In this document: positions 5,578 through 20,647 of the stretch, one piece after another
Layout of the letters: every line of letters begins with the position of its first letter
Numbering within the stretch: the first letter of the stretch is position 1
IMG/VR virus record: IMGVR_UViG_3300031952_001342
Coordinates: 1-22,969 of that record
Source: a virus
Length of the DNA: 22,969 bases
Strand: one strand, 5' to 3'
Notes under the pieces: generated by a model
What the model was told of the DNA's origin: nothing
The model's input: only the letters and a program-made list of their open reading frames with translations
Databases searched by the model: none
Program-made: the position numbers and the translations under genes

Positions 5578-6942
5578 ATGAGAAATAAAGTGAGACTTAC
5601 CGAACAAGGGTTACGTCAATTAATTAAAAGAATTGTCGAGGAAGTTGATGGTGAATATTATAAAATATCACCAGAAGAATACTTAGACCTATTAAAGTTA
5701 TCAGGGTATCACGGACGAGGAATAAGCCGATTACCCAAATTCCAAGGGAAACCTTTATGGATAACAGGTGATTTAAAAATAAATAACACATCAACAGATT
5801 CTTTAGGAAACGTAGGTTATGTCGACGGTTCTTTAGATATTAGAGATACTAAGATAAGTGATGTATCAAATATTAAGGTTAAACAACATGTATGGGACTC
5901 TGGTACTCCAATTGAACGTAAAAGACTAGCCGCAGAATTACAAAAAAAGAAAGATGAGATGGATGTTCTTCGTGATAACGATGAATGGAATGTTAATGAT
6001 ACTGATGAGTTAGGTTTAAAGGCTAATGCGTTATTTAAACATTTAGTTTCAGAAGGTTTAGACTCCTTAGATGAAGAGGGACAAGAAAGATTATCTAACT
6101 TAAAAATTCAGTTAGATAAATTACAAGATGAATATAATAACGTTGAAGACTCTGAATTAGTTTCTGACCTATATGATAAAATTACTGATTTAGAAGGGGA
6201 CATTGAAGGATTAGAAAATGAAAATAATGATGTTTATGTCTTATCACCAACTCGGTATAACACCTATGGTTTACAAAGCTTTGAAGTTTTAAACCCTGAG
6301 TTTAAAAATATGGTGTATAGTGTTGGTACCTATGATGAAATGGATGATGCCGCTTTAAATTATGCTAAAAGTTATATTGATGAAGTTGGAATAGATGGTT
6401 TTAATCAAGGATTTATTGACGATTATATTGATACTAATTATGTTAGAGGTTATTTTAGTGATTGGTACGAAGATGATGTAAGACAAAATCCTGAAGTTTA
6501 TTTTACTGAGAAAGATTATGAATTAACTTTGGCTCAAGAAGAAAGAAAAGACCAATTAGAAAATGAAATTTCTGAGTATGAAGAAAAACAAAGTAATTTA
6601 GATTTTGACACTGAAGTCCCTGAGGAATTTCATAGAATATATGACCAAATACAAGACCACATCGATTCCTTACAAGAAGAATTAGACAATATAACGCCTG
6701 ACGATGAACCTACCGAGGAAATGATTGAGGAGAAGGTTGAAAGTATGTTAGATGATGTTGAAAGAAACCCTGTATATTATATTAAAGAATACGGTGCAAA
6801 TATTAATGATTTTATTGATGAAAATGCTTTAGCCCAAGGACTTGTTGATGCCGACGGATGGGGAATCATGAATAATTATGACGGTCAATATGATGAGGTA
6901 ACCGTTTCGGGACGTGATTTTTATGTCATGAGAGTCGAGTAA
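5578..6942 (+). CDS. Tagged, acidic coiled-coil protein (putative virion protein)
   Basis: A 454-residue protein. Residues 1-22 (MRNKVRLTEQGLRQLIKRIV then EE) carry the shared tag: strand-like VRLTE, then an amphipathic helix ending IVE. Residues about 52-103 hold leucine-rich-like repeats (LPKFQGKPLWITGDLKI, LGNVGYVDGSLDIRDTKI, VSNIKV). Long heptad-like stretches at about 115-225 and 315-375 predict coiled coils; the whole is very acidic. I chose ATG 5578 because the longer form from 5488 adds 30 residues rich in Phe, Tyr and Lys lying upstream of the late motif. Virion location is inferred from the tag and the late-type promoter, not from a known family. Confidence 0.78.
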   Translation: MRNKVRLTEQGLRQLIKRIVEEVDGEYYKISPEEYLDLLKLSGYHGRGISRLPKFQGKPLWITGDLKINNTSTDSLGNVGYVDGSLDIRDTKISDVSNIKVKQHVWDSGTPIERKRLAAELQKKKDEMDVLRDNDEWNVNDTDELGLKANALFKHLVSEGLDSLDEEGQERLSNLKIQLDKLQDEYNNVEDSELVSDLYDKITDLEGDIEGLENENNDVYVLSPTRYNTYGLQSFEVLNPEFKNMVYSVGTYDEMDDAALNYAKSYIDEVGIDGFNQGFIDDYIDTNYVRGYFSDWYEDDVRQNPEVYFTEKDYELTLAQEERKDQLENEISEYEEKQSNLDFDTEVPEEFHRIYDQIQDHIDSLQEELDNITPDDEPTEEMIEEKVESMLDDVERNPVYYIKEYGANINDFIDENALAQGLVDADGWGIMNNYDGQYDEVTVSGRDFYVMRVE

Positions 6943-6983
6943 AAGTATTCATTTATTCATAAAGTCTTTGTATATTTTAATAA

Positions 6984-7763
6984 ATGGAAAAGAAACGAAG
7001 ACATAAAAAAGTAGAGTTCATAATGGATACCGATTGGTTGTTCCAAGGTATCTTAGATGCGGAACAAAAACAATACGTTTTATTAAACTATTTCCAAAAA
7101 TTAAATAAACATTTGGAACGAATGGAAGTTTATCCGATGTTTATTGAACTATCATTGCATTTAGGTAATATCCAAACATTACTTAATCAAAACAAAATAT
7201 TATATACCGAAAAAAAATTCTTAACCAATGATGACGAATTAGTGTTATCAGATTTAAAAGTTAAAGATATTCCAGTTCTTGCAGAGGAGGAAGTTTATGA
7301 ATACCATCAGATTTTAAAAAACACACAACCACAATTATTCGACTACTTCAATTTTGCAAAATCAATTTGGAGTATAGTATATGATTCTGTTGATATTGTT
7401 GTTAAAAAAAATAAGGGTAACCTTAAAAGTAATACAGGTTTTTTTTACTTCAAATCAAATAATATTGTCTATGTTTGGCAATATACCACCAAAAAAGTTT
7501 ATAGGACTAAGAATCAAAGTAAAACAACTACGAAATTAATTTACGAAGGACCACAAGATGGTTTGACAATACACGAAATTATATCTAAATTTTCTAAAAC
7601 ATATGAAAAGAATGAGGAAGTTAATAATCCTGTTTTTGAAATGTTTTGTAAAGATATATTCCCACTTGAGGAAACGTTAATACCAATCTTTAAAAGAAAA
7701 GTGTTAGCTTACATTAATCAAAGTGGTGGTAGTAGTAAAAAAACAGTTAAATATATAGAATAA
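6984..7763 (+). CDS. Hypothetical protein, 259 residues
   Basis: Begins MEKKRRHKK, then IMDTDWLFQGILDAEQKQYVLLNYFQ and a mainly helical first half; the second half has strand-like segments (GFFYFKSNNIVYVWQYTT). I do not recognise a functional family. A TATATTTT (6971-6978), one base away from the TAnnTTTG box, lies 5 nt before the ATG and may be a weak promoter giving a very short leader. The gene overlaps the next one by one base (TAATG), so it heads a run of four small overlapping genes up to 8346 that may extend into the glutamine synthetase gene. Confidence 0.7.
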   Translation: MEKKRRHKKVEFIMDTDWLFQGILDAEQKQYVLLNYFQKLNKHLERMEVYPMFIELSLHLGNIQTLLNQNKILYTEKKFLTNDDELVLSDLKVKDIPVLAEEEVYEYHQILKNTQPQLFDYFNFAKSIWSIVYDSVDIVVKKNKGNLKSNTGFFYFKSNNIVYVWQYTTKKVYRTKNQSKTTTKLIYEGPQDGLTIHEIISKFSKTYEKNEEVNNPVFEMFCKDIFPLEETLIPIFKRKVLAYINQSGGSSKKTVKYIE

Positions 7764-7969
7764 TGGGGCTAAACAAAAGATTTATCGACATCGACACTAT
7801 CAATCGTTATTTAGATGGTAAAGAAAATTTAGATGTATTATTTAAAGCGGATGCGTTTATTTTTATGGATAACACGGCGTCTAAAGTTTATGGGTGGTAT
7901 ACTAAAAAGTTAACTGAAGAAGAAATAAAACTAAAAATAAATGAACTTTATGAATCAACAAAAAATTAA
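7763..7969 (+). CDS. Small hypothetical protein, 68 residues
   Basis: Its ATG overlaps the previous stop by one base (TAATG), a sign of translational coupling. The product starts MGLNKRFIDIDTINRYLDG, with a hydrophobic strand DAFIFMD and a charged C-terminal helix (TEEEIKLKINELYEST). No known family or active-site motif is seen. The 3' end overlaps the next small gene by 29 nt. Confidence 0.65.
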   Translation: MGLNKRFIDIDTINRYLDGKENLDVLFKADAFIFMDNTASKVYGWYTKKLTEEEIKLKINELYESTKN

Positions 7970-8144
7970 TTTGTTATTTTCAAAACTAAGACAACCTATT
8001 CACATTGACTATATTTGTAAGGAGATTACGAATGATAGTTATGAAAACACTAAAAAATTACTACAAGAATTGGTAGATAAAGGAAAAATTGAAGAAAGTA
8101 AAACAACTAAAGACTATTATGTTATTTCAAAAGAAAACTTATAA
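7941..8144 (+). CDS. Small winged-helix-like protein, 67 residues
   Basis: The layout resembles a minimal winged helix: a first helix (KINLLFSKL), PIHIDYICKEI then NDSYENTKKLLQELVDKGKI as a helix-turn-helix-type segment, and a short YYVIS strand as the wing. Such small proteins can be phage transcription factors, but no DNA target can be read here. The start is ATG 7941 or ATG 7950 (MNF-MNQQ); both overlap the previous gene. It overlaps the following gene by 26 nt. The fold assignment is by pattern only. Confidence 0.6.
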   Translation: MNFMNQQKINLLFSKLRQPIHIDYICKEITNDSYENTKKLLQELVDKGKIEESKTTKDYYVISKENL

Positions 8145-8346
8145 GGTACACGGAGTAGGTACTCAACACATAATTAAAGTGTTTGGGTACCCTATTGTAG
8201 TTAATCTCGGCGACTATGATATTTGGTTTCGGTTTGGTAAAAACGAGAAAGGATTTAGTCTTACATCTAAACCAAAGTTTTCACTAAGAAATGGTCGTAA
8301 GAAATCATTAAAAATTGGTAAATATTACATAACTAAAATAAAATAA
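8119..8346 (+). CDS. Small hypothetical basic protein, 75 residues
   Basis: A basic, strand-rich product (MLFQKKTYKVHGVGTQHIIK at the start, then FGYPIVVNLGDYDIWFRFGK and a lysine-rich end). An upstream TTG in the same frame (8089) would extend it, but ATG 8119 is the ordinary start and lies within the preceding gene by 26 nt. No family recognised. It ends 5 nt before glutamine synthetase, so the two are very likely on one mRNA. Confidence 0.6.
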   Translation: MLFQKKTYKVHGVGTQHIIKVFGYPIVVNLGDYDIWFRFGKNEKGFSLTSKPKFSLRNGRKKSLKIGKYYITKIK

Positions 8347-8351
8347 AAAAG

Positions 8352-9545
8352 ATGATAAAAATTGAGTACATATGGTTAGACGGTTATACACCAGAACCTA
8401 ATTTAAGGAGTAAGATAAAAGTAATTGAAGGAGGAATTCCTGACTTATCAGAAGTACCTGAATGGAACTTTGACGGTTCGTCAACAAAACAAGCGGAGGG
8501 GTATAGTTCTGACGGTATATTAAAACCAGTTCGATTATATCGTGAGATGAATAGTAGTGATAAAGTATATGTTTTATGTGAGGTAATGAATCCTGACGGA
8601 ACACCACATGAATCAAATCATAGAGATATGTTAGGTGACGAGGTCAATGATATGTGGTTTGGGTTTGAACAAGAATATTTTATTCAAGAAGGTATTAGTA
8701 AACCAATCTTAGGATTTAACCGACCTCACGTTGAAGGACAAGGTAAATATTATTGTGGTGTTGGTAGTAATGTTGTTGGTCGAGAATTAGTTGAAGAACA
8801 TATGGACTTGTGTTTAAATATGGGTATTGAAATCACTGGTGTTAATGCTGAAGTTGCTTTAGGTCAATGGGAGTACCAAGTGTTCGCTAAAGGTAAGATT
8901 AAAGCTGGTGACGATTTATGGATGTCAAGATATTTGATGGAGAAATTATCTGAGAAATACGGATATCATATTAACTATCACCCAAAACCAATTACCTCGG
9001 GAGATTGGAATGGTTCAGGATTACACACAAACTTCTCAACAAAAAAGATGAGGGAAGTTGGTGGGGAAAGTTATTTCAAAACATTATTTAATGCTCTTGA
9101 ATCAAGAAGAGAGCAACATATCGAAGTCTACGGTTCTGATAATAATCTTAGATTAACTGGTAAACATGAAACACAATCAATTCACAAATTTAGTTGGGGT
9201 GTAAGTGACAGAGGAGCGTCAATTAGAGTTCCAAGGTCCGTTGCCGAATTATGGAAAGGTTATGTTGAAGATAGAAGACCAGCATCTAATGCAAACCCAT
9301 ACGAGGTTATTAAGGTGATAAGTGATACTATTGATATGGCGGATGAGTTATCGGTTACGTTAAATAATATGTATTCAAACGTTAACACTAAAAATTTTGA
9401 TGATTTAAAATCTAAATACAATGGAATACCAACCGCAGAAGAACTTTTGGATGAGTACAAAAATGATGATGAATATGAATTATCAGAAGAAATGACCAAT
9501 TCTAGCGCATATGTCAAACCAACATCAATTGACAATAAAAAATAA
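8352..9545 (+). CDS. Type II (eukaryotic-type) glutamine synthetase
   Basis: A 397-residue protein that joins ammonia to glutamate using ATP. All the blocks of GSII are visible: EYIWLDG (5-11), WNFDGSST (38-45), FGFEQEYF (103-110, metal-binding Glu), NAEVALGQWEYQV (165-177), GSGLHTNFST (221-230), KHETQSIHKFSWG (271-283), RGASIRVPRSV (287-297) and DRRPASNANPY (307-317). GSII enzymes usually stop at about 350-360 residues; here an acidic, Ser/Asn-rich tail of about 65 residues (331-397) follows, which is unusual. The catalytic residues look intact, so activity is likely. The gene sits in a phage-like operon between an unknown small gene (5 nt gap) and DUF3310 (4 nt gap), which argues it is a phage auxiliary metabolic gene and not host sequence. 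No adenylylation site is expected in this type. Confidence 0.93.
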   Translation: MIKIEYIWLDGYTPEPNLRSKIKVIEGGIPDLSEVPEWNFDGSSTKQAEGYSSDGILKPVRLYREMNSSDKVYVLCEVMNPDGTPHESNHRDMLGDEVNDMWFGFEQEYFIQEGISKPILGFNRPHVEGQGKYYCGVGSNVVGRELVEEHMDLCLNMGIEITGVNAEVALGQWEYQVFAKGKIKAGDDLWMSRYLMEKLSEKYGYHINYHPKPITSGDWNGSGLHTNFSTKKMREVGGESYFKTLFNALESRREQHIEVYGSDNNLRLTGKHETQSIHKFSWGVSDRGASIRVPRSVAELWKGYVEDRRPASNANPYEVIKVISDTIDMADELSVTLNNMYSNVNTKNFDDLKSKYNGIPTAEELLDEYKNDDEYELSEEMTNSSAYVKPTSIDNKK

Positions 9546-9549
9546 TAAT

Positions 9550-9780
9550 ATGGGTGAGCAGGTAGACCATCCACAACATTATGGGGGTGAAGATAATCTT
9601 TACGAAGCCATCAAAGTAATTGATGCTTGGGGTTTAGGTTTCTCATTAGGAAATACTGTAAAATATATCTCAAGAGCGGGTAAAAAGAATAAAGAAAAAG
9701 AGTTGGAAGACCTTAAAAAGGCTTTATGGTACTTACAACATCACATTAAAACACTATCTAACAATGAAATGGAATCGTAA
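9550..9780 (+). CDS. DUF3310 family protein (SaV-like, phage nucleotide-kinase-associated)
   Basis: A 76-residue protein with the DUF3310 signature: VDHPQHYGG (5-13), GNTVKYISRAGKK (34-46) and DLKKALWYLQHHI (54-66). The family is common in tailed phages; it is often annotated as a nucleotide kinase, on weak grounds. I chose ATG 9550 over the in-frame ATG at 9511 because 9511 lies inside the glutamine synthetase gene and the added residues do not belong to the family. Its last 17 nt overlap the start of the hidden lipoprotein gene. Confidence 0.88.
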   Translation: MGEQVDHPQHYGGEDNLYEAIKVIDAWGLGFSLGNTVKYISRAGKKNKEKELEDLKKALWYLQHHIKTLSNNEMES

Positions 9781-9940
9781 TGAATGGCAAGGACGCTCAA
9801 GAAGACAAGTAAAAAATAATTATAAAGTTTTTGAGTATTCGTTAATTTTACTTATAATTAGTTTAATAATAATTCTTAGTAGTTGTAAATCATCAGAAAC
9901 AGTAAACTGTGACGCATACAGTAAAATAGAGAACAAATAA
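9764..9940 (+). CDS. Small lipoprotein, 58 residues
   Basis: A short ORF in the gap between DUF3310 and the methyltransferase. It has a basic N-terminal region (MKWNRNEWQGRSRRQVKNNY), a hydrophobic core (YSLILLIISLIIILSS) and a lipobox LSSC with Cys41, followed by KSSE, and a second Cys at 49 in NCDAYSK. This is a signal peptidase II lipoprotein layout; the acidic/polar residues after the Cys would fit Bacteroidetes surface-export signals. In a phage, such a protein could be an outer-membrane spanin or a superinfection-exclusion lipoprotein; no inner-membrane spanin partner is seen. It overlaps DUF3310 by 17 nt and ends 1 nt before the methyltransferase ATG, supporting a real gene. Confidence 0.72.
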   Translation: MKWNRNEWQGRSRRQVKNNYKVFEYSLILLIISLIIILSSCKSSETVNCDAYSKIENK

Positions 9941-9941
9941 A

Positions 9942-10811
9942 ATGACAGAAAATTATATAGGAAAAGTTGTAAATGGTGATTGTATTGGTGTTATGTCAAC
10001 AATGGATGATAATACGATTGATTTAGTTGTTACATCCCCACCATACAATGTAGGTATTGAGTATGACAATCATGATGATAGACTTAAGATGGATGAGTAT
10101 TGGGAATTCACCAAGAATTGGTTATCTCAGGTTTATCGAACATTAAAACCTGATGGTCGAGTTGCAATCAACATACCTTATGAAGTTAACGTTCAAGATA
10201 GAGGTGGTAGAGTTTTATTCATGGCTGAATTTTGGGGTGTTATGAAAGAGGTTGGTTTTAAATTTTACGGGTTGGTCGACCTTAATGAGGATTCACCTCA
10301 TAGAAGTAAGACAACGGCTTGGGGTAGTTGGATGTCACCGTCATCACCTTACATTTATAATCCTAAAGAATGTGTAATATTGGCCTATAAAACCGTTTCT
10401 AAGAAACAAAATAAAGGTATACCACAATGGGTTGGGGTTATAAATAATATTGAACAGGAAGATGGTTCATTTAAAAAGAAAGTATTGTATACCGATGAAG
10501 CCAAAAAAGAGTTTATGGGATTAGTATACGGACAATGGAGTTATTTTGCCGACACCAAACAAATGACCAAAGCGACATTCTCAATGGACATTCCAACAAG
10601 GGCTATTAAAATATTAACGTATAGAGATGAGATTGTCATGGACCCATTTGTTGGTTCGGGAACTAGTTTAGTTGCCGCTGAAACATTAAATAGACGATGG
10701 ATTGGTATTGAAGTGTCTGAAAATTATACGGAAGTTGCTAAAAAAAGAGTTCAACTATTTGTGGATAAGAAAAAACAAATTGAATTAGAATTTAACGAAG
10801 AGGGGATTTAA
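9942..10811 (+). CDS. DNA methyltransferase (N4-cytosine/N6-adenine, SPPY type)
   Basis: A 289-residue enzyme. The catalytic motif TSPPYN is at 31-36 near the N-terminus, and the S-adenosylmethionine-binding motif DPFVGSGTS is at 234-242 near the C-terminus; this order marks the beta class of amino-methyltransferases. SPPY is typical of N4-cytosine enzymes, although some N6-adenine enzymes share it. The target site cannot be read from sequence. No restriction endonuclease gene lies next to it, so it is an orphan methyltransferase, probably protecting phage DNA from host restriction. A bulged terminator hairpin overlaps its stop codon. Confidence 0.9.
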   Translation: MTENYIGKVVNGDCIGVMSTMDDNTIDLVVTSPPYNVGIEYDNHDDRLKMDEYWEFTKNWLSQVYRTLKPDGRVAINIPYEVNVQDRGGRVLFMAEFWGVMKEVGFKFYGLVDLNEDSPHRSKTTAWGSWMSPSSPYIYNPKECVILAYKTVSKKQNKGIPQWVGVINNIEQEDGSFKKKVLYTDEAKKEFMGLVYGQWSYFADTKQMTKATFSMDIPTRAIKILTYRDEIVMDPFVGSGTSLVAAETLNRRWIGIEVSENYTEVAKKRVQLFVDKKKQIELEFNEEGI

Positions 10812-10826
10812 CATCCTCTTTTTTGT
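10798..10826 (+). terminator. Terminator overlapping the methyltransferase stop codon
   Basis: AAGAGGGGAT pairs with ATCCTCTT with a two-G bulge, followed by TTTTG. The stem begins inside the last codons of the methyltransferase gene. A late-type promoter motif follows 8-9 nt later. Confidence 0.6.
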
Positions 10827-10834
10827 TTTCATGA

Positions 10835-10842
10835 TATTTATA
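10835..10842 (+). promoter_or_regulatory. Late-type promoter motif for the tagged membrane-active protein
   Basis: GATATTTATAATAAAA; core TATTTATA at 10835-10842, 14 nt before ATG 10857. It shares flanks with the motifs at 5510-5503 (minus), 16649 and 18980. Confidence 0.6.
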
Positions 10843-10856
10843 ATAAAAAAATACAC

Positions 10857-11966
10857 ATGAAAGGAATGAAACTTACTGAGTCTGAATTAAAAGACAGAAT
10901 AGTTCAAATTTATAAAGAGGAACAATATAAGATTCTCGAAGAAAAATGGAACAAATTATCTAAAGAAGATAAAATATTTGTTGTTGAATTTGCAAAAGAA
11001 ATATACCCTGAACAAGCCAAATTAATCAAAGAATCTAAATGGTATAATACCGTTGGGGATATTGTTGGTATCTTTGACCCAACAGGTGTTGTTGATATTG
11101 TTAATGGTATTAGTTACTGGAGACAAGGTGATAAATTATATGCACTTCTTTCATTAATCTCTGCGGTTCCTTACTTAGGTGACCTTATCGCTAAACCTGT
11201 TATTGGTGTTATGAAATTAGGTGGTGGTGCAGCTAAAGCATTTAAAGCAGCGGCCTTAACAGGTGATGCCGTTAAAATAGCAGGTACTGCAAGAAGAGCT
11301 GGTGGACCTATTGCTAAGATGGTTGAGACCGCTCCGAGTTGGGGTGAGAAATTAGTTACCTTTTTAAAAGGTTCTGTTGGTAGAGTTCCTATGTTAGGTT
11401 CTGGATTAGTTAAAGTTGTTGAAGAGTACGTTCAAATTTTTGGAAAAGCTGGAAAAGAAATGAAAGCGGGAACTGAAATTGGTAAAGGTGTTATGAAAAG
11501 TGAAAAAGCCTTAAGTGCGGTTGAAAAAGAGGAATTACTAAAACAAATGAGTAAAGACCAATCTTTCAGAGGGTTTAGAGATTATAAAGGAGGTTTACAA
11601 TCAATGTCAAGTAAATATATCTCAGGTGGTATGGGTCGTCTATTTGGTAATAGAGCGACAAGGTCGTTAATGAGAAGAACTAAATGGTATTTAGGTTTAT
11701 TAGATTGGTTAGGTATTGGTAACTTTGTTGGCCCTGAGGAATTAGAAAATATAGTTCCTAATTTAGAAGAAAGAGCTAATCAATATAGTGAGACACCTGA
11801 ATCACAAAGTTTATGGAACCAAGAGTTTGCTGCAGGTCAAACAACAGGAAATTCAGTTGTACCATCATTATCTACTGCAACACAATCAGCGTCAACTGTG
11901 GTTAAAACAGACGCATTCACATCATTAATTGGTTCACTATTAGGTGGAGGAAAAGCGTTAGTATGA
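10857..11966 (+). CDS. Tagged protein with pretoxin-like hydrophobic domain (putative membrane-active virion protein)
   Basis: A 369-residue protein. Residues 4-22 (MKLTESELKDRIVQIYKEE) are the shared tag. Residues about 64-120 (TVGDIVGIFDPTGVVDIVNG, then YALLSLISAVPYLGDLIAK) resemble the glycine-rich hydrophobic helical hairpins found before toxin domains in polymorphic toxins and in some phage virion proteins. A Gly/Ala/Lys-rich stretch follows (120-150), then basic segments, and a Ser/Thr-rich end closing with SLLGGGKALV. The hydrophobic hairpin suggests interaction with a membrane, for example during DNA entry; this is inference. The gene has a late-type motif upstream and overlaps the DHH gene by 4 nt (ATGA), so both are expressed together. 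An alternative start is ATG 10866. Confidence 0.78.
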   Translation: MKGMKLTESELKDRIVQIYKEEQYKILEEKWNKLSKEDKIFVVEFAKEIYPEQAKLIKESKWYNTVGDIVGIFDPTGVVDIVNGISYWRQGDKLYALLSLISAVPYLGDLIAKPVIGVMKLGGGAAKAFKAAALTGDAVKIAGTARRAGGPIAKMVETAPSWGEKLVTFLKGSVGRVPMLGSGLVKVVEEYVQIFGKAGKEMKAGTEIGKGVMKSEKALSAVEKEELLKQMSKDQSFRGFRDYKGGLQSMSSKYISGGMGRLFGNRATRSLMRRTKWYLGLLDWLGIGNFVGPEELENIVPNLEERANQYSETPESQSLWNQEFAAGQTTGNSVVPSLSTATQSASTVVKTDAFTSLIGSLLGGGKALV

Positions 11967-13369
11967 AAAAATTAATTAAAGAAAGTGGTATTAGGGATAT
12001 CAATAAGTTAGCTAAACGTTATTCTAAAGCTGAGATTTATTTTCACCAAGATTTAGATGGTGTGACAACCGCAATTGCGATGAAAAAATACCTTGAGGAT
12101 AATGGGATTAAAGTTGTTGATGCTCACGTTATTCAATATGGGGACAAAGAGTTCTCTGTAAAGAAGAACGATGCTCAAGGTGATATTATGCCAGTACTTG
12201 TGGATTTTGCTCACGGTAAACCAATGTTTGTTATCCATACAGACCACCACGATAGACAAGCGGGTGCGGAAGATACTAAATCAACTTCATTTAGAAGTTC
12301 ACGTTCAAATGTTGAAACAATATCTCAAGTTGTATCACCTAATGAAATATTTTCACCTGAAGACATTCAATTAATATCTATGGTTGACTCTGCTAATTAC
12401 GCAGCTAACGAAGTAACTGTTGACCAAGTAATAAATTACTTATTCAAATTAGATAAAGAAAAATCTTTAAGTAAAAACAAAACTGCCTTAGGTTTAGTTG
12501 CTAATAAGTTATTATTGGCGTTTAAAAATAAACCAGGGTTCTTAGAAGAACTTGTTATGGTTGGTACCCCATCACTTATGAATCTTGTTACTAACATAAA
12601 AAGAATCATGATTGAGAAAGGTTACGCCACTGTACCCGAATTACAGAAAAACAAAGAAGGTTATATTGACCAAATGAAAAACCACCATAATGTTAAAATT
12701 GAAGGTAACATTATTGTTCAATACGGAGGTGGTAGTATGATGAAACCTGGTTCTTATGATAGATACACACCTTTCAAAAATAACCCTGACGCTGATTTCT
12801 TAGTTATTGCTTGGCCATTAGGTTTAGTTCAAGCGTCTTGTAATCCTTATAAAAAAGAACGTGAGTTAAAAGGTGTTAACTTAGGTGAGATTGCTCAGGA
12901 AGTACTTGCTAAATGGGAAACACAATTACAAGAAAGACAAATACCCTTATCAACAATTAAATGGATTTCTGAAGGTTCAAAAGGATTTGGTCCTGAATCA
13001 GTTGGATTTACATTTAGAGACTTTGTCGCATTATATGGGGACAATTTTAAAACAATGGAGAATGGTAAAGAACATTTAACACAAATTGGTAAAATGATGG
13101 AAATTCCTTTTACTGAATTAAGTGAGGAAGAAATGAAAATGTTAGATGGTGTTACGATTAATGCTTGGGATTTAATTCAGGCTAATAGTGGCGGGCACAA
13201 ATGTATCACTAATATATCGGGTCTTAGTTATTTAGGCAGGTCTAAAAGACCACCAGCAGGAAAGTACAAATATAATGCTGAGTCAGATGATTCTCCTTAT
13301 GTGAAGTTTACTAAAATGGTTCAAAAAGAATTGGTAAATGTGTTACAGTCTAAAATTAATGAAGGTTAA
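11963..13369 (+). CDS. DHH-family phosphoesterase (RecJ/nanoRNase-like)
   Basis: A 468-residue protein. DHH family motifs are visible: motif I FHQDLDG (27-33), motif II with Asp81 (VLVDFAHG), motif III TDHHDRQ (93-99), motif IV with Asp142 (SMVDSAN), and a C-terminal DHHA1-like NSGGHKC (408-414). These residues bind Mn/Mg ions in RecJ single-strand exonucleases and nanoRNases; sequence alone does not fix the substrate. The protein opens with MKKLIKESG, which reads like the end of the shared tag (LIKE followed by S, an ideal L/I-x-E cut site). It overlaps the preceding tagged gene by ATGA and is therefore under the same late-type promoter. Its stop overlaps the stop of the opposing DUF192 gene by 4 bp. 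Confidence 0.85.
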   Translation: MKKLIKESGIRDINKLAKRYSKAEIYFHQDLDGVTTAIAMKKYLEDNGIKVVDAHVIQYGDKEFSVKKNDAQGDIMPVLVDFAHGKPMFVIHTDHHDRQAGAEDTKSTSFRSSRSNVETISQVVSPNEIFSPEDIQLISMVDSANYAANEVTVDQVINYLFKLDKEKSLSKNKTALGLVANKLLLAFKNKPGFLEELVMVGTPSLMNLVTNIKRIMIEKGYATVPELQKNKEGYIDQMKNHHNVKIEGNIIVQYGGGSMMKPGSYDRYTPFKNNPDADFLVIAWPLGLVQASCNPYKKERELKGVNLGEIAQEVLAKWETQLQERQIPLSTIKWISEGSKGFGPESVGFTFRDFVALYGDNFKTMENGKEHLTQIGKMMEIPFTELSEEEMKMLDGVTINAWDLIQANSGGHKCITNISGLSYLGRSKRPPAGKYKYNAESDDSPYVKFTKMVQKELVNVLQSKINEG

Positions 13370-13887: not shown

Positions 13888-13895
13888 TATCTTTG
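13888..13895 (+). promoter_or_regulatory. Bacteroidetes-type -7 element for smpB, probably leaderless
   Basis: TATCTTTG is an exact TAnnTTTG match ending 4 nt before ATG 13900. Transcript start should fall at or next to the ATG. No clear -33 TTTG is seen. Confidence 0.65.
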
Positions 13896-13899
13896 CTTT

Positions 13900-14334
13900 A
13901 TGGGAAATCAAATCAACATAATAAATCGTAAAGTTAAATTTGAATATTCATTTATTGAAACTTTAATTGTTGGTATTAAATTGGTTGGACCTGAGGTTAA
14001 ATCAATTCGTAGTGGTAAAGTATCATTAGTTGATGCTTATTGTTTTTTTGTTGATAACGAGTTAGTGGTTAAAGGAATGAACATTCCTGAATATAAAATG
14101 GCGTACACTCACGAACCATTACGAGATAGAAAGTTATTACTTAAGAAAAAAGAAATTATTAAGTTACAAAAAGAACTTGTTAAAGGGTTAACATTAGTCC
14201 CGTACAGAATATTTTCAAATGATAGGGGGTTATTAAAGATGGAAATAGTTTTAGGTAAAGGTAAAAAATTACATGATAAGAGAGAATCTATTAAAGAAAG
14301 AGATATTAATAGAGAAATTATGCGTGGTATTTAA
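13900..14334 (+). CDS. smpB: SsrA-binding protein SmpB
   Basis: A 144-residue protein with the SmpB fold landmarks: NRKVKFEYSF (9-18), GPEVKSIRSGK (30-40), PLRDRKLLL (73-81), GLTLVPYRIF (96-105) and KGKKLHDKRESIKERD (120-135). SmpB carries tmRNA into stalled ribosomes for trans-translation. The C-terminal tail that reaches the mRNA channel is present (SIKERDINREIMRGI) but shorter by several residues than in E. coli. I chose ATG 13900 over 13861 because 13861 lies inside the terminator hairpin and the promoter box lies between them. No tmRNA gene is seen in the window, so the protein may work with host tmRNA. A phage copy of smpB is unusual. Confidence 0.92.
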   Translation: MGNQINIINRKVKFEYSFIETLIVGIKLVGPEVKSIRSGKVSLVDAYCFFVDNELVVKGMNIPEYKMAYTHEPLRDRKLLLKKKEIIKLQKELVKGLTLVPYRIFSNDRGLLKMEIVLGKGKKLHDKRESIKERDINREIMRGI

Positions 14335-15113: not shown

Positions 15114-15122
15114 AAAACGCCG

Positions 15123-15130
15123 TATATTTG
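15123..15130 (+). promoter_or_regulatory. Bacteroidetes-type -7 element for the 91-residue gene
   Basis: TATATTTG, exact TAnnTTTG, 17 nt before ATG 15148. The -33 region lies in the end of the previous gene and shows no good TTTG. Confidence 0.6.
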
Positions 15131-15147
15131 TAGAAACAATTAAAGAT

Positions 15148-15423: not shown

Positions 15424-15431
15424 TATAAATT

Positions 15432-15692: not shown

Positions 15693-16138
15693 TAATCAGA
15701 TATCAAAAAATGTCCGATAAAATTACTCGATTAGACATATGGAATGTGAGTGACATCAGTGACTTGTTTTCAACCATACCTGTTAATAGTTTTGAAAGAA
15801 CCAACCCATGGGAAGAGTTCATTAACGGGTTAAAAATTCATTTAGGTAAACGTAGTTCAGGATGGAAGTTCTGTTGGAATTTCCACGACAACGAATACTT
15901 TTCAAATAAAGAAGAATTGTTTAAATTTATTCGTTCTGGACGTGTGGTTAATGAGTATGGTGAATTACAAGATAATGAAGAGTTTATCAAAATGGCATTA
16001 GACTGGGGCCAACCTGATGGTAATATCGTGACTCACGAATATGTTTCAGAACATATGTCTTTCATTAGTGATAAGAGTAGTTTTGTTGATAAAACGGTCG
16101 ACGGTCTTAGAGTATCGCCTGTTAAAGACTTCGCGTAA
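15650..16138 (+). CDS. MGTNYY family phage protein
   Basis: A 162-residue protein that starts MGTNYYRIP and contains IHLGKRSSGWKF (63-74) and a later EYGELQDNEEFIKMALDW. These are the hallmarks of a small protein family frequent in phages (MGTNYY at the N-terminus, then a HIGKSS-GW block, often with a CxxC zinc pair). Here the usual zinc-binding cysteines near the N-terminus are absent (RIPKSSEIVIRY). Function unknown. The family start fixes the ATG at 15650 even though this overlaps the membrane-protein gene by 43 nt. A structured RNA and terminator follow the stop. Confidence 0.75.
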   Translation: MGTNYYRIPKSSEIVIRYQKMSDKITRLDIWNVSDISDLFSTIPVNSFERTNPWEEFINGLKIHLGKRSSGWKFCWNFHDNEYFSNKEELFKFIRSGRVVNEYGELQDNEEFIKMALDWGQPDGNIVTHEYVSEHMSFISDKSSFVDKTVDGLRVSPVKDFA

Positions 16139-16164
16139 TATATTGTTTCCTTGTTTAGAAAAAT

Positions 16165-16225
16165 AAGGTGGTGGAACCTGACATATCCTGTCGGCCCTAA
16201 AGGAGACTTCGGTCTCCTTTTTTAT
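16165..16225 (+). ncRNA. Structured RNA tail after the MGTNYY gene (3' UTR or small RNA)
   Basis: After the stop at 16138 there is no ORF. A G-rich segment GGTGGTGGAACC (16168-16179) is followed by a hairpin with GACA/TGTC closed by CC/GG (16178-16194, one bulged T), then directly by the terminator. The region is markedly more GC-rich than the genome around it, as expected for a folded RNA. It could be a 3'-end-derived small RNA or an RNA-stabilising element. No known family recognised. Confidence 0.4.
16199..16224 (+). terminator. Terminator with TTCG tetraloop
   Basis: AAAGGAGAC (16199-16207), loop TTCG, GTCTCCTTT (16212-16220), then TTTTATTT. A perfect 9-bp stem and the best terminator in the window. 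Confidence 0.9.
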
Positions 16226-16243
16226 TTAAAATCAAAATGAATA

Positions 16244-16251
16244 TATTTATT
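16244..16251 (+). promoter_or_regulatory. Late-type promoter motif before the 125-residue gene
   Basis: TATTTATT in ATATATTTATTGATATAAAA, 16 nt before ATG 16268 and 19 nt after the terminator. Confidence 0.5.
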
Positions 16252-16267
16252 GATATAAAATATTCTA

Positions 16268-16645
16268 ATGGCGATATCAGTTAATTATAATCTTACAACA
16301 CTACCTTTAGCCTTAAAAAAAGGCAATTTTTATTTAGGTGTTGGAGATGTTGGTAAAGGACCAACTAGTGGAACTAGTTATTACCACGGTATAACACCTG
16401 TTCTTGGCGGATACACATTATATGTTACTCGAAGTGGTACTAACCAACCTAAGATATACACCGCATCAACTGACTCACAATTAATACTTTTAACTAATAC
16501 TTTATTTGGACAAACATTTACCGTAATATCTCAATGTAATAATTACTTTATAAGTAGGTCCGATACCAAGGATGGGGAGTATAAAAGAAATTATTATAAT
16601 GATGAAGAGAGTGCTCAAGCATTTTATGTATCTTTAATTAATTAA
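16268..16645 (+). CDS. Putative virion protein, 125 residues
   Basis: Begins MAISVNYNLTTLPLALKKGN and is rich in Gly, Ser, Thr and Tyr, with strand-like segments (FYLGVGDVGKGPTSGTSYYH, GGYTLYVTRSGTNQPKIYTA). It looks like a small beta-rich structural protein such as a head or tail decoration component. It lacks the shared tag but has a late-type motif upstream. Virion role is inferred from composition, promoter class and the tagged gene that follows 23 nt later. No named family recognised. Confidence 0.7.
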   Translation: MAISVNYNLTTLPLALKKGNFYLGVGDVGKGPTSGTSYYHGITPVLGGYTLYVTRSGTNQPKIYTASTDSQLILLTNTLFGQTFTVISQCNNYFISRSDTKDGEYKRNYYNDEESAQAFYVSLIN

Positions 16646-16648
16646 CGA

Positions 16649-16656
16649 TATTTATT
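16649..16656 (+). promoter_or_regulatory. Late-type promoter motif before the 106-residue tagged gene
   Basis: CGATATTTATTATTAAAAC; core TATTTATT, 12 nt before ATG 16669. It lies just after the stop of the previous gene. Confidence 0.55.
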
Positions 16657-16668
16657 ATTAAAACTATT

Positions 16669-16989
16669 ATGGGTAAAGATATTATTATTTCAGAAAAACA
16701 ATTAGAAACACTAGTTAATGGTGTTAAAAAAAGAAATATACAAGAACACGGAGAAGAAGGGTCTTACATGGCAAAACAACAATTATTCACTATTGCAACA
16801 TTAGCACACGCTATGTGGGAGAAAATGGAACAAGGTGAACAACTTGAGGATTGGATGGAAACTAAACTTGCTCAGGCCGAACAAAGTATTGTTACTGTTG
16901 TTAAGACATATATGTATGATGAATTTGAGTCTAAAGACTCTGAAGGTATGGGTAAATTAAATTACGATGAAATAGTAATTGGTAAATAA
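16669..16989 (+). CDS. Tagged small phage protein, 106 residues
   Basis: Residues 5-26 (IIISEKQLETLVNGVKKRNI then QE) match the shared tag and end in an IQE cut-site pattern. The rest is helical and acidic (KQQLFTIATLAHAMWEKMEQ, LEDWMETKLAQAEQSIVTVV, KTYMYDEF). I have the impression that similar short proteins occur in marine phages, but I cannot name a family. It has its own late-type motif. An internal region up to about 25 residues would be removed if the prohead protease cuts at IQE. A terminator-like hairpin follows at 17018-17051. Confidence 0.72.
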   Translation: MGKDIIISEKQLETLVNGVKKRNIQEHGEEGSYMAKQQLFTIATLAHAMWEKMEQGEQLEDWMETKLAQAEQSIVTVVKTYMYDEFESKDSEGMGKLNYDEIVIGK

Positions 16990-17004
16990 TAATTAAAAAA
17001 TACT

Positions 17005-17033
17005 TTGACATTTAAAGACCTTTGTTTTATTAT
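17005..17033 (+). promoter_or_regulatory. Possible sigma70-type promoter before rmlB
   Basis: TTGACA (17005-17010), 17-nt spacer, TATTAT (17028-17033): 11 of 12 bases match the E. coli sigma70 consensus, which is not the Bacteroidetes form. It overlaps the hairpin at 17018-17045. In AT-rich DNA such a match may be chance. Confidence 0.35.
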
Positions 17034-17051
17034 TAAGACAAAGGTTTTTTT
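17018..17051 (+). terminator. Terminator hairpin abutting the rmlB start codon
   Basis: ACCTTTGT (17018-17025) pairs with ACAAAGGT (17038-17045) around a 12-nt loop, followed by T residues up to the ATG at 17052. It would end the transcript of the 106-residue gene. The AAAGG in its 3' arm could also serve as a ribosome binding site for rmlB. Confidence 0.6.
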
Positions 17052-17948
17052 ATGAGTAAAATTATAGTAACAGGAGGTTTAGGTTTTATTGGGTCACACT
17101 TTGTAAATTATGTTAGAGAGAATACAGACCATGAAGTATTAATTATTGATAAACTCACATACGCAGGTAATCCTAATAATATTATATTACCAACCGCATA
17201 TCTAAAAAAAGATATATGTGATATAACACCTGAGGATTTAGGCGACTACGATTACATAGTTAATTTTGCTGCCGAGTCACACGTTGACAATTCAATCAAA
17301 GACGGATTACCATTTGTTAAATCAAATGTACAAGGGACTTTCAATATGATTGAGGTAGCAAGAAAAAACAAAAATCTAATTAAATTCTTACACATCTCAA
17401 CGGACGAAGTTTATGGTGACATAGATGAGTATTCGGCGATTGAAACCGATAACATTATCCCAAGTTCATATTATTCCGCAACTAAGGCGTCTGCAGATAT
17501 GTTGGTAACGTCTGCGGGTAGAACATATGGGTTTCCATACTTAATCACACGTACTTGTAATAATTACGGAGAAAACCAACACAACGAAAAATTTGTACCA
17601 AAGATTATTAACTCAATTAAAAAAGGTGATGAGGTACCAGTGTATGGTGATGGTGAACAAGTTCGGGAATGGATACATGCTGACGATAACGCCAAAGCGA
17701 TATTAACCCTATTAATGTCTGATGAGGTTAATACGGTATATAATATTGGGACTGGCGAATCGTATACTAATAACCAAATAATTGGAATAATTAGTAATAT
17801 TTTAGGTAAGGAAGTTAAGTTTAAATACGTTGAAGATAGACTGGGTCATGATAGAAGATATTCATTAAGTTCTTTAAAATATGAAAACAAATTTGGTGTT
17901 ATACAAAATACTAAACTAACTGAATGGTTAAAAAAAATAATTAATTAA
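17052..17948 (+). CDS. rmlB: dTDP-glucose 4,6-dehydratase
   Basis: A 298-residue extended short-chain dehydrogenase. The NAD-binding GGLGFIG is at 8-14, NFAAESHVDNSI at 71-82, the catalytic STDEVYG at 116-122 (Asp118-Glu119 pair typical of the dehydratase), YSATK at 141-145 (Tyr/Lys), and RTCNNYGENQHNEKFVPK with GDGEQVREWIHADD further on, all as in RmlB. It turns dTDP-glucose into dTDP-4-keto-6-deoxyglucose. It is shorter than most RmlB proteins (about 330-350 residues), with a trimmed C-terminus. rmlC lies 245 nt downstream, with one small gene between. rmlA and rmlD are not in the window, so the host may supply them or the product is another dTDP sugar. Confidence 0.92.
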   Translation: MSKIIVTGGLGFIGSHFVNYVRENTDHEVLIIDKLTYAGNPNNIILPTAYLKKDICDITPEDLGDYDYIVNFAAESHVDNSIKDGLPFVKSNVQGTFNMIEVARKNKNLIKFLHISTDEVYGDIDEYSAIETDNIIPSSYYSATKASADMLVTSAGRTYGFPYLITRTCNNYGENQHNEKFVPKIINSIKKGDEVPVYGDGEQVREWIHADDNAKAILTLLMSDEVNTVYNIGTGESYTNNQIIGIISNILGKEVKFKYVEDRLGHDRRYSLSSLKYENKFGVIQNTKLTEWLKKIIN

Positions 17949-17958
17949 ATAAATAAAA

Positions 17959-18180
17959 ATGGTAGAAAAACAAAACAGATTACTTAATGCGTTGAACGCA
18001 AAGTATACTGCGGAAATGATGGATGCTTTAGCAAGATTAGAAGTTTATATAACTTCACCTGTGGCAATTGGTGAACATCCACAACACACAGAAGAAATGG
18101 ATAAATTAATTGAACAGTATACAAATGCTAAAGATAAGGCTGAGTCGTTGATGATTATGAAAAATGAATTAGGTTTTTAA
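17959..18180 (+). CDS. Small helical phage protein between rmlB and rmlC, 73 residues
   Basis: A mostly helical protein: MVEKQNRLLNALNAKYTAEM, then ARLEVYITSPVAIGEHPQHT and a second helix with EEMDKLIEQYTNAKDKAESL. The short 'npVgIGEHp' turn between two helices is one I associate with small phage proteins of unknown function in T4-like marine phages; I give that as recollection, not proof. It starts 10 nt after rmlB and ends 13 nt before rmlC, so the three are co-transcribed, though its role need not relate to sugars. Confidence 0.7.
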   Translation: MVEKQNRLLNALNAKYTAEMMDALARLEVYITSPVAIGEHPQHTEEMDKLIEQYTNAKDKAESLMIMKNELGF

Positions 18181-18193
18181 CTAATTAAATAAT

Positions 18194-18715
18194 ATGGAAG
18201 AAGGTTTATTAATATATAACTCAGTATTCGAAGATAATCGAGGAACATTTGCACCTTTACCTTTAAAATTTGGTGAAGGTAAATTATCGGTATTACGTAA
18301 AAATTGGGTACAAAGCAACGTTAGTGTTAACCCTAATAAATTTACGTTTAGAGGGTTACATTTCCAAGTAGGAGATTTCGCTCAGTCTAAGTTAATTAAG
18401 GTCATTACAGGGGAGATAATTGACTTTATCGTTGATATTAGACATAGTTCGCCTAACTATCTGAAGATTTATAAGTTTGTTGTAAAACCTAACAATGAAT
18501 TGTTTGTTCCAAAAGGATTTGCCCACGGGTTTATAACTACCGAGGATAATACGGTAGTTCAATACTTGGTGGATAACGACTACTCACCATTAAATGAAGG
18601 TTCTATTTTTTGGGGGGATTTTAATTTAATTAAACAAACAATAGAGAGAGTTATTGGTGATAGTAAATTAATCATTTCAACCAAGGATTTAGTAACTAAA
18701 AATTTTAATGTCTAA
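18194..18715 (+). CDS. rmlC: dTDP-4-dehydrorhamnose 3,5-epimerase-like protein
   Basis: A 173-residue cupin. RmlC landmarks: DNRGTF (14-19), FRGLHFQ (52-58, catalytic His56), SKLIKV (65-70, basic residue), VDIRHSSP (80-87), VPKGFAHGF (105-113, His111) and QYLVDNDYSP (123-132, Tyr124/Tyr130). These are the residues used for epimerisation of dTDP-4-keto-6-deoxyglucose. With RmlB it would yield dTDP-4-keto-L-rhamnose, or a related sugar if only one carbon is epimerised. The sugar may modify the virion, the host surface or DNA; no glycosyltransferase is in the window. The next gene overlaps its end by 8 nt. Confidence 0.88.
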   Translation: MEEGLLIYNSVFEDNRGTFAPLPLKFGEGKLSVLRKNWVQSNVSVNPNKFTFRGLHFQVGDFAQSKLIKVITGEIIDFIVDIRHSSPNYLKIYKFVVKPNNELFVPKGFAHGFITTEDNTVVQYLVDNDYSPLNEGSIFWGDFNLIKQTIERVIGDSKLIISTKDLVTKNFNV

Positions 18716-18977
18716 TCAAGCGATAAAATTTCATGAGAATAAAACAATACCTATTGAACTGCCAAGTCCGACAGGTACAACTTTCGTTGACATAAAGTTA
18801 AAGAGTGGTAAGAACGACCTTAGTTTTATTATTGAAGTTTATAAAACCAAAGACATTAAGGGTTTAACCAATAAAGTAATACAACACTATATCTATAAAC
18901 AATTATCATCTTATCTAACACTATTCTCAATTGATGATGAATATAACATAGAGACTTTTAATTTTATTGATTGCTAA
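18708..18977 (+). CDS. Small hypothetical protein, 89 residues
   Basis: Overlaps the rmlC end by 8 nt, so it is in the same operon. The product starts MSNQAIKFHENKTIPIELPS, then a strand-rich part (TTFVDIKLKSGKNDLSFIIE) and a helical, aromatic end. No family recognised; no active-site motif. It is the last gene of the rmlB-rmlC unit; the late-type motif of the Dps-like gene begins 3 nt after its stop. Confidence 0.65.
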   Translation: MSNQAIKFHENKTIPIELPSPTGTTFVDIKLKSGKNDLSFIIEVYKTKDIKGLTNKVIQHYIYKQLSSYLTLFSIDDEYNIETFNFIDC

Positions 18978-18979
18978 GA

Positions 18980-18987
18980 TATTTATA
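18980..18987 (+). promoter_or_regulatory. Late-type promoter motif before the Dps-like gene
   Basis: AAGATATTTATAGTGAAAAC; core TATTTATA, 14 nt before ATG 19002. Confidence 0.6.
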
Positions 18988-19001
18988 GTGAAAACATTAC
19001 T

Positions 19002-19445
19002 ATGAAAAATGAAATTTTAAAAGATAAAATTTTTGAAGCTATTAAACAACAAGAATTATTAACTGAACAAAAAACAGGTACTAAGGATTTTATTGAGATG
19101 GTTTCTCTGTTATTTCACTCTAGAACTCAAGCCCATACATTACATTTACAGACCAAATCATTTGCAGAACACAGTGCGTTAAATGGGTATTATGACGAAA
19201 TTGGAGGATTGGTTGATGGGATTATAGAATCGTATCAAGGTAAATACAGTATCATTAAAGGATACAAAAAATATGATATTGAAGATTATAAAGACTCAAC
19301 AACTACTATTAATTATTTTAAAGACCTTTGTGGGAAAGTTAATGATTTAAGAGATTGTTGTAAAGATTCTTATATCCAAAATCAAATCGACACTGTTTGT
19401 GAGTTAATTAATTCAACATTATATAAATTAAGATTTTTAAAATAA
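19002..19445 (+). CDS. Dps/ferritin-like protein (DUF5856-like)
   Basis: A 147-residue helical protein. The stretch 37-63 (LLFHSRTQAHTLHLQTKSFA, then EHSALNGYYDE) resembles DUF5856 proteins of phages, which look like Dps/ferritin four-helix bundles: His39, His45, His48, His57 and Asp65 fall at spacings used for metal binding, followed by VDGIIESYQGKY. Dps proteins bind iron and DNA. The N-terminus MKNEILKDKIFEAIKQQELL followed by TEQ has a weak form of the shared tag with an LTE cut-site pattern. It has a late-type motif upstream, consistent with a virion-packaged or late protein. Four cysteines lie in the last third. Iron binding is inference. Confidence 0.72.
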   Translation: MKNEILKDKIFEAIKQQELLTEQKTGTKDFIEMVSLLFHSRTQAHTLHLQTKSFAEHSALNGYYDEIGGLVDGIIESYQGKYSIIKGYKKYDIEDYKDSTTTINYFKDLCGKVNDLRDCCKDSYIQNQIDTVCELINSTLYKLRFLK

Positions 19446-19454
19446 TTAAATCAG

Positions 19455-19462
19455 TATTTATT
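19455..19462 (+). promoter_or_regulatory. Late-type promoter motif, 3 nt before ATG 19466
   Basis: CAGTATTTATTATT then ATG; spacing as at 5567-5574. The transcript would be leaderless if the box acts as a -10 element. Confidence 0.55.
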
Positions 19463-19465
19463 ATT

Positions 19466-20647
19466 ATGAATAAACGAGAAATTCTTAACAATTTAATTAT
19501 AAAAATAGTTTCATGTAAAACTCAAAATGAGCTTAAAGAAATTATTAAAGAGATTAATTTGTTTATTAAAGAATATTCAATTGTTGATAATTCTAACGAG
19601 TATGAAAGACTCAAAAACGCCGTTGGAATTATGAAAATAAAATTAAAAAGAAAATTTATGTTTGATGAGTCAAAATCAATTCGTATTACTGAGTTTGATT
19701 TATCTAAAATTGTTAAATTAATTATTAAAGAACAACTTGAAGGTCAAGGGGAAAATCCTTTGTCGGAAAAAGAGATTAGATTATTCAAATATCTTAATAA
19801 ACATAAACAAGATATGGGTAAACAATCTGAAATGTTAGCCTTTATTAAAACCATGATGCCTTTCGTGGGAAGACCCGAATCTGACTCGAGATTCTATTAC
19901 GAAGTTTATACCGCAAATTACAGACCTAATGGTGATTACGAGAATTTAGATAAGACAACTTTCAGAAACTTCAGAGAGTTTAAACAAAGAAAAACGCCAA
20001 ACAATAACGCTTACCAATTCAGTAGTGCTAAAATCCCATTCAAAGGGTCAAATCTTGAAGGTTACTGGGATGTTAATCGTAAAAACGAGTGGTATTATGT
20101 GGTTAAATCTTATAATTGGTACCCTGTTTATTTATTCATCAACAATCAATGGTATAAAGTTAGTAACCCCTATTCATCATCAACATCAAAACAAATGTCA
20201 CACGCTAATCCTGTAAGATATAATTCAGGTTTAGATGCTAAAGTTATTAGTGTAACAAAAGTAGAAATCCAAAATCTTATTGACGGAAAAAGTTTAGATG
20301 ATGTTAAATCCGAAAGAGTAACTAATTTTGGTGATAAATTTGCATCGGCGTTAATTGGTACTAAAAAGTTATTAAGTATTGGTTGGGGGGATAATAGAAA
20401 AAAAGTTAATTATACTATTAGTAACGTTAAGAGTGAAGATGGTAAAATTAAGATTGAAGTTACTATTAATAAAGCGGGTACCATCGAAGGTACAAATAAG
20501 ATGGTTATTAACCCTGAAGGTTATGTACACCCAAGTCCTTTCTCAGAAGATTTAGAAAATGGTATTAAATCAAAAATAATGATAGATAACAAAGATTATT
20601 TAACTGATGATAATACTGAATTTACTTTCAACCACCCCACAAAATAA
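19466..20647 (+). CDS. Tagged putative virion protein with internal tag, 393 residues
   Basis: The tag is internal here: IRITEFDLSKIVKLIIKE at 72-89, followed by QLEGQGE. Before it lies a helical, lysine-rich stretch of about 70 residues (1-71). If a protease cuts at IKE (87-89), a long N-terminal part would be removed. After the tag come a helical region (LSEKEIRLFKYLNKH) and an aromatic, beta-rich body (YWDVNRKNEWYYVVKSYNWY). An alternative start is ATG 19658 (residue 65), which would place the tag at the N-terminus like the others; the late motif just before ATG 19466 favours the longer form. Virion role inferred from tag and promoter; no named family. Confidence 0.72.
   Translation: MNKREILNNLIIKIVSCKTQNELKEIIKEINLFIKEYSIVDNSNEYERLKNAVGIMKIKLKRKFMFDESKSIRITEFDLSKIVKLIIKEQLEGQGENPLSEKEIRLFKYLNKHKQDMGKQSEMLAFIKTMMPFVGRPESDSRFYYEVYTANYRPNGDYENLDKTTFRNFREFKQRKTPNNNAYQFSSAKIPFKGSNLEGYWDVNRKNEWYYVVKSYNWYPVYLFINNQWYKVSNPYSSSTSKQMSHANPVRYNSGLDAKVISVTKVEIQNLIDGKSLDDVKSERVTNFGDKFASALIGTKKLLSIGWGDNRKKVNYTISNVKSEDGKIKIEVTINKAGTIEGTNKMVINPEGYVHPSPFSEDLENGIKSKIMIDNKDYLTDDNTEFTFNHPTK

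Follow-up and report, generated by a model that had tools for sequence, protein, structure and literature searches.

Short N-terminal tags closing in hydrophobic-x-Glu as putative capsid-targeting propeptides of large T4-like phages

The virus record IMGVR_UViG_3300031952_001342 (22,969 bases, analysed in full and called here the window; G000) encodes six proteins, named by their start positions 5578, 10857, 11963, 16669, 19002 and 19466, that carry propeptide-like tags closing in [ILV]xE. Tags of this kind stand at the N-termini of many proteins with unrelated bodies in related phage contigs. We consider it about 80% probable that they are capsid-targeting propeptides of a T4-like head, cut by the phage's own protease of family S77, and that this frees the cargo for delivery with the DNA. 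An earlier note on this DNA had read the tags as capsid-targeting sequences for packaged cargo, and our comparative sequence analysis supports that reading.

In the mechanism that we propose, a late-expressed cargo protein would bind the prohead core through an N-terminal amphipathic helix. The gp21-like (S77) protease would then cut past [ILV]xE, as predicted in its own capsid protein (LINE/A or LINE/S; a slash marks a predicted cut throughout), and the mature protein would be freed within the head and later delivered with the DNA. As loading would require the tag alone, bodies and tags could be exchanged freely, and one phage could carry tens of different cargoes.

Tag classes and the closing glutamate

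To compare N-termini blindly, we aligned the first 40 residues of all open reading frames (ORFs) in 2.2 Mb of related phage contigs and kept the pairs with unrelated bodies. At E < 1e-3 this yielded a component of 329 N-termini from 191 body families, with relatives in the sister contigs G001 and G003 tallied separately; at E < 0.01 the component grows to 409. Five contigs of at least 240 kb hold 35 (G020), 42 (G015), 44 (G001), 47 (G016) and 49 (G017) tagged ORFs, the last count being less secure because G017, with its two head modules, could be chimeric. These ORFs represent 28, 35, 40, 37 and 48 body families, respectively. Applied to T4 as a positive control, the test returned as its sole group ipII and ipIII, whose shared N-terminus is a proven capsid-targeting sequence (CTS).

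The tags fall into several classes: A (MKKIIRLTESDLTRIVKRVIxE), B (MKIIITESQYxxLxE), C (MNLQExIxRIxxMMGxixE), D (M[RK]DLIKKILREE) and E (MKKFIITEEEKxxIxxLYxLxxE), with a separate group of eight of the form MKNIExYKxRFxNLMESxMGDVKPLINE. They were also considered as Sec or lipoprotein signal peptides, an idea we rejected: in the clustering, such signals are separate from the tag classes and form their own component, which has 46 members at E < 0.01. Another separate group comprises 17 N-termini of the type ITINNITGASPFNIYICD, found in seven related contigs (for example G001:107940 and G020:186418) on proteins of 71 to 1,754 residues; it differs in kind from these tags and may represent an adhesion or tail module.

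We ran a class A profile, assembled from 75 distinct seeds, over 2,946 ORFs of ten records, in which eight ORFs contain a seed and match by construction. Fifty-one ORFs outscore the best shuffled ORF (3.4), and 47 of the matches begin within the first four residues. The 5578 protein is among the other four solely through the choice of start: its ORF could begin at 5488, and the ATG at 5578 makes the tag N-terminal, matching its relatives. At the DNA level, the pattern LTES-D-L..IVK..I occurs in at least 120 stretches, and in the first 80 loci it marks 92 ORFs, 88 of which have the motif 5-7 residues past a Met. Several of our pattern scans, including that with the class A DNA pattern, were samples, and their counts are lower bounds.

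In class A, the closing Glu is present in all 88 proteins with distinct bodies, at a position that the search did not force and against a background Glu frequency of 7.8%. It stands two residues after the last fixed Ile, the intervening residue varies (K, N, S, R and others), and conservation falls off past it. Classes B and C were defined by their first ten residues only, and [ILV]xE was sought in residues 11-26; it is present in 39 of 46 and 74 of 79 proteins, compared with maxima of 30 and 46 in 2,000 shuffles and 23% in downstream windows. The first place of the closing motif is I or L, also V and rarely M. In related phages, then, the profile leads to N-terminal tags on unrelated bodies with a hydrophobic-x-E end, in line with the earlier note.

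The same motif marks the place where tag and body meet. Among distinct relatives of the six window proteins, 199 of 210 have [ILVM]xE no more than four residues from the body junction, compared with 315 of 1,940 random places (16%); a junction that recurred was counted once, and matches beginning over 15 residues inside the body were excluded. Across these relatives, tags vary or are swapped. The DHH phosphoesterase-like protein begins MKKLIKE/SGIRD in the window, and its relative L443 has a full-length class B tag ending QLIKE/SGIRD. The 19466 protein has a class A tag running to LIIKE/QLEG; many of its relatives have a short tag only, MRDLIKKILKE/QLEG (also MKDLIKKILKE/Q). In the head module of the large contigs, a terminase-adjacent gene reads MKKEQLVKRLVSRINE/APIGYEGPERM in G020 and MGNLTEKELDRIVNKIINE/APIDYDGPERM in G016.

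Synonymous codons differ among tags, and therefore the peptide itself is conserved. This retention of amino acids, together with the drop in conservation past the Glu and the persistence of the junction in diverged relatives, makes it very improbable that the shared N-termini are functionless leftovers of recombination at gene starts (cassette exchange, or a shared late promoter and start region), even though the tagged genes do lie in arrays with a common upstream TATTTAT.

Protease, capsid protein and late-type element

A gp21-like protease is encoded in the contigs G001, G015, G016, G017 and G020, together with a capsid protein of the T4 type. More broadly, the gp21-like peptidase (PF03420, S77) occurs in one of 14 contigs picked via the 10857 protein, 14 of 19 picked via the class A tag, and 15 of 18 contigs of at least 195 kb picked via classes B and C. 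The earlier note had proposed a search for such a protease; among 21 contigs tested for both proteins, it was found in exactly the 15 with gp23 over the cut-off, a result to be set beside those for the window and the control contigs below. In each of five contigs, the propeptide of one gp23 is predicted to end in LINE/A or LINE/S, a form shared with the class A end V-I-N-E. The corresponding end is IVSE/A in Flavobacterium phage vB_FspM_immuto (NC_055915), the closest cultivated phage by the capsid protein of a related contig (gp23 identity 41.6% across 55% of the query, with an uncultured record ranked higher). Scaffold-like proteins contain many [ILV]xE sites.

We also considered whether the tags are uncleaved docking helices onto another late complex, such as the tail, a membrane or an intracellular phage compartment. 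Tags of classes A and B have a common [LI][TS]E opening, which is a typical helix start. Their cleavage is a prediction from sequence, and in some class B-like tags the xE end is indistinct, both of which suit a helix that stays in place. However, the different tag classes, the short tags (MKKLIKE) and the capsid protein all close in [ILV]xE, and a shared last residue would be superfluous in a dock that is never cut. We therefore regard docking as unlikely.

Several results weigh against cleavable capsid-targeting propeptides, or narrow what their support covers. Seven of the 46 class B and five of the 79 class C proteins have no [ILV]xE in the stretch searched, the end is unclear in many class B-like N-termini (MKILITENKLYRTIYNYLEDTF..), and 10 of the 24 Dps-like junctions have no motif at the exact place. 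The cut places behind the count of 199 in 210 were picked by eye from alignments before the junctions were counted. The set of 329 N-termini contains a few false members, two of which look like untagged epimerases, and the blind test is insensitive, having missed T4 IPI and Alt. The second gp23 of G017 has LVTE/T instead of LINE. S77 is missing from 13 of 14, five of 19 and three of 18 contigs in the three tag-related sets, where fragments are possible, and the search of the window found none, which means little for a 23-kb fragment. Finally, S77 is present in six of 13 control contigs picked by an arbitrary 14-mer (a small control of 44-215 kb contigs that includes one relative, G002), and we dropped it as a specific mark of tagged contigs for this reason.

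Tagged genes share an upstream element. Our census took genes with an upstream gap of at least 40 nucleotides (nt), scored TATTTAT up to 50 nt upstream, labelled genes by homology to immuto and used Fisher tests. The element precedes 107 of 123 tagged genes and 303 of 961 untagged ones, as well as 32 of 46 structural (late) genes and one of 34 replication or nucleotide (early) genes, often standing about 20 nt ahead of the start codon. Its behaviour in this group of phages is that of a late-promoter element, and it points to late expression of the tagged genes alongside the head genes. In the window, TATTTAT lies within 24 nt upstream of five of the six tagged starts and one of 31 others (three of 31 within 50 nt), counted with corrected starts and including three minus-strand genes.

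The statement that all tagged genes lie under this element is thus correct for five genes of the window; the DHH gene at 11963 has no element of its own and, because it overlaps the 10857 gene, is probably on the same transcript. TATTTAT also occurs at 16244, ahead of an untagged gene at 16268, and 40 and 49 nt ahead of minus-strand genes starting at 5470 and 5201. The suggested comparison of tagged virion and non-virion genes had a neutral outcome: among 155 homology-labelled conserved genes, 83 late and 72 early, there is not one tagged gene.

Window proteins and tagged cargo

The four full tags were located where the earlier note had placed them, at the N-termini of the 5578, 10857 and 16669 proteins and internally, at residues 72-89, in the 19466 protein (Table 1). 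Its 'weaker forms' on the DHH and Dps-like proteins also proved sound, with [ILVM]xE kept at the junction in all 63 and in 14 of 24 distinct relatives. An [LI]xE end describes the junctions generally, with a correction for the 10857 protein, whose tag ends not at KEE but at LIKE/SKWYNTVGD. Because this junction is conserved and Glu59 is invariant, the predicted propeptide is about 59 residues long. The 71 residues ahead of the internal tag of the 19466 protein (19466-19678) are missing from most of the relatives shown. The annotated start of this ORF may be wrong, since an ATG at residue 65 would render the tag N-terminal.

Table 1. Predicted tags, bodies and upstream elements of the six tagged window proteins; junction counts are of distinct relatives with [ILVM]xE.
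Feature	Position	Strand	Evidence
TATTTAT upstream of 5578 gene	5567..5573	+	
N-terminal tag of 5578 protein, predicted cut RIVE/EVDG	5578..5640	+	30/30 junctions
Predicted mature 5578 protein	5641..6942	+	Weak matches only, E 0.004 and above
TATTTAT upstream of 10857 gene	10835..10841	+	
Predicted N-terminal propeptide of 10857 protein, KLTESELKDRIVQIY... to LIKE/SKWYN	10857..11033	+	Glu59 invariant in 28 aligned sequences; 51/51 junctions
Predicted mature 10857 protein, mostly helical in low-confidence model	11034..11966	+	Neither family nor fold match
Short tag MKKLIKE of DHH protein, predicted cut LIKE/SGIRD	11963..11983	+	63/63 junctions
DHH phosphoesterase-like body	11984..13369	+	PF01368 E 1.7e-4, under Pfam cut-off
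TATTTAT upstream of 16669 gene	16649..16655	+	
Tag of 16669 protein, predicted cut NIQE/HGEEG	16669..16746	+	23/23 junctions
Predicted mature 16669 protein	16747..16989	+	Weak matches only
TATTTAT upstream of 19002 gene	18980..18986	+	
Tag of Dps-like protein, predicted cut LLTE/QKTG	19002..19067	+	14/24 junctions at exact place
DUF5856 / phrog_858 body (Dps-like protein)	19068..19445	+	PF19174 E 3.5e-19; phrog_858 E 3.3e-23
TATTTAT upstream of 19466 gene	19455..19461	+	
Class A tag, residues 72-89 of 19466 protein, predicted cut LIIKE/QLEG	19679..19732	+	18/19 junctions
Predicted mature 19466 protein	19733..20647	+	One weak Pfam match, PHROG unmatched

The bodies themselves say little about function. 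The AlphaFold model of the 10857 protein has a mean pLDDT (predicted local distance difference test) of 65 and a pTM (predicted template modelling score) of 0.47, and none of its 63 PDB matches reaches E ≤ 0.001. Pfam, PHROG and the fold search with this model give no support to a 'membrane-active' protein, and for the 'nuclease-like' one the sole support is the sub-threshold DHH match. Weak Pfam matches of window proteins to HOOK, DrrA_P4M and RVT_thumb fell under the cut-off and were not used.

Beyond the window, we searched Pfam with 75 of 142 tagged proteins of at least 130 residues, with distinct bodies, from five contigs. Few were matched, with 18 families in total. Among them are a sigma-70-type factor in G017 (tag MKIIIKESQLPLLLE/N..) and, in G001, a homolog of Acb1, which counters CBASS (cyclic-oligonucleotide-based antiphage signalling system) defence. 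The latter has the tag MELNEQLTKIKTMMGINE/N.. and matches at 30.5 bits against a cut-off of 27, over region 63-145, past the tag. A peptidoglycan-binding protein is tagged as well, and a class C-like tag is found on a fusion of polyphosphate kinase 2 (PPK2) to a phage lysozyme domain (G020:28908-30695); the 75 proteins as a set also include M23-peptidase and GH19 matches. Epimerase matches were rejected as cargo and taken as false, as they fit the two members that look untagged. A PADLOC search of the 75 proteins found nothing.

These bodies bear on where the cargo would act. The tags could be loaded and cut while most of the proteins serve head assembly, as scaffold or core filling or in DNA condensation, and not delivery to the host; this account overlaps ours until the last step. 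T4 IPIII influences head assembly according to the part of the source used here (PMC9026906), and some tagged genes adjoin the gp23 or terminase gene. Against this, the sigma factor and the Acb1 homolog among the cargo would be expected to have their roles inside the host. We consider a predominant role in head assembly improbable, if less so than docking, and favour loading, cleavage and delivery with the DNA.

The 10857 protein has 124 relatives among viral contigs, of which 80 were kept, some from contigs of up to 322 kb. Against the phage collection, megablast of the window gave zero matches, so that named phages are unmatched at the DNA level, and tblastn of the 10857 protein also gave none; tblastn of a 23-residue tag gave none either, in a search that may overlook queries so short. 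Among 84,980 bacterial and archaeal genomes, two stretches contain the class A DNA pattern. Because both are in metagenome-assembled genomes of Bacteroidota, the hosts of the tag-bearing phages are probably Bacteroidota. The window also encodes a glutamine synthetase (8352-9545, PF00120) and SmpB (13888-14334, PF01668, E 1.8e-45); a gene for transfer-messenger RNA was looked for in the window beside the SmpB gene, and none was found. The 268,739-base contig G017 has its two T4-like head modules at 26.7-35 kb and 228-238 kb, with two S77 proteases and two gp23 genes between them. One module resembles that of immuto. The pair may reflect chimeric assembly or a phage equipped with two capsid systems.

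Relation to known systems and meaning

In T4, as described in the part of the literature used here, N-terminal propeptides of 10-19 residues serve as CTS and are cleaved off by gp21, and the first ten residues of IPIII are required for loading (PMC9026906). As in the CTS of T4 IPI, IPII and IPIII, the tags described here are short N-terminal propeptides, by prediction, that are common to proteins with unrelated bodies; the predicted cut site is hydrophobic-x-E, the protease family is S77 and the capsid family is gp23. The sequences show the traces that a system of this type would be expected to leave, and there is a high probability that the tags work like the T4 CTS. The sequences differ by eye (T4 MKTYQEFIAEA, here for example IRLTESDLxRIVKRVIxE), and so does the scale. 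The blind test on single genomes yields one group of two in T4, whereas the largest groups here have 23 (G001), 9 (G015), 16 (G016), 11 (G017) and 17 (G020) members, in component lists that also hold signal peptides and other groups. Immuto, a phage of Flavobacterium sp. LMO8, resembles our contigs in its related gp23 and in having a gene, at 124660, for a protease annotated as the prohead core serine protease. The blind test also detects non-Sec tags in it, in three groups (4, 3 and 2 genes), beside a Sec group of 3 and one tail-gene pair. The nine tagged genes are those at 1803, 25061, 102294, 102880, 103806, 111675, 113188, 117631 and 118632, and in the product of 102880 a hydrophobic-x-E site is not evident. 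It differs in its smaller genome (160 kb), other tag sequences and far fewer tagged genes.

A second comparison is with phiKZ-type phages, and phiKZ gp175 is the type of protease family S80. The tagged proteins recall phiKZ, SPN3US and 201phi2-1, in which many head proteins undergo cleavage after a Glu residue and are ejected into the host, and in SPN3US gp53 and gp54 have identical N-terminal 15 residues (both from the part of PMC5694885 used here). Unlike here, those phages have S/A-x-E or A-x-E motifs, several propeptides of more than 100 residues and a diverged protease, and the sections used of PMC9026906 and PMC5694885 describe no small tag across tens of unrelated proteins. In the literature that we searched by listing, we found no mention of the LTESDL tag with phage, and among papers on capsid-targeting sequences, judged by title, none on Bacteroidota phages. 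The tag sequences, the number of classes and the scale therefore appear to be new, an earlier description not having been found there.

Looking across the entire analysis, we lean slightly towards a general delivery system in large T4-like Bacteroidota phages, in which several families of interchangeable N-terminal labels, each closing in the site of the phage's own protease, would load some 35-50 fast-exchanged proteins per capsid for injection. These would include the Acb1 homolog, the sigma factor, the PPK2-lysozyme fusion and peptidoglycan-binding proteins. Label families may differ in the core partner or the copy number that they address. Apart from DNA, little is known of what large phages inject, since the function of the cargo proteins cannot be recognised. 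With a readable label, tagged ORFs would form a list of candidate injected effectors, including counter-defence proteins that could act ahead of phage transcription. The tags also predict where mature proteins begin, to the residue, which a cultivated Flavobacterium phage would allow to be tested, and may supply new loading tags for capsid engineering.

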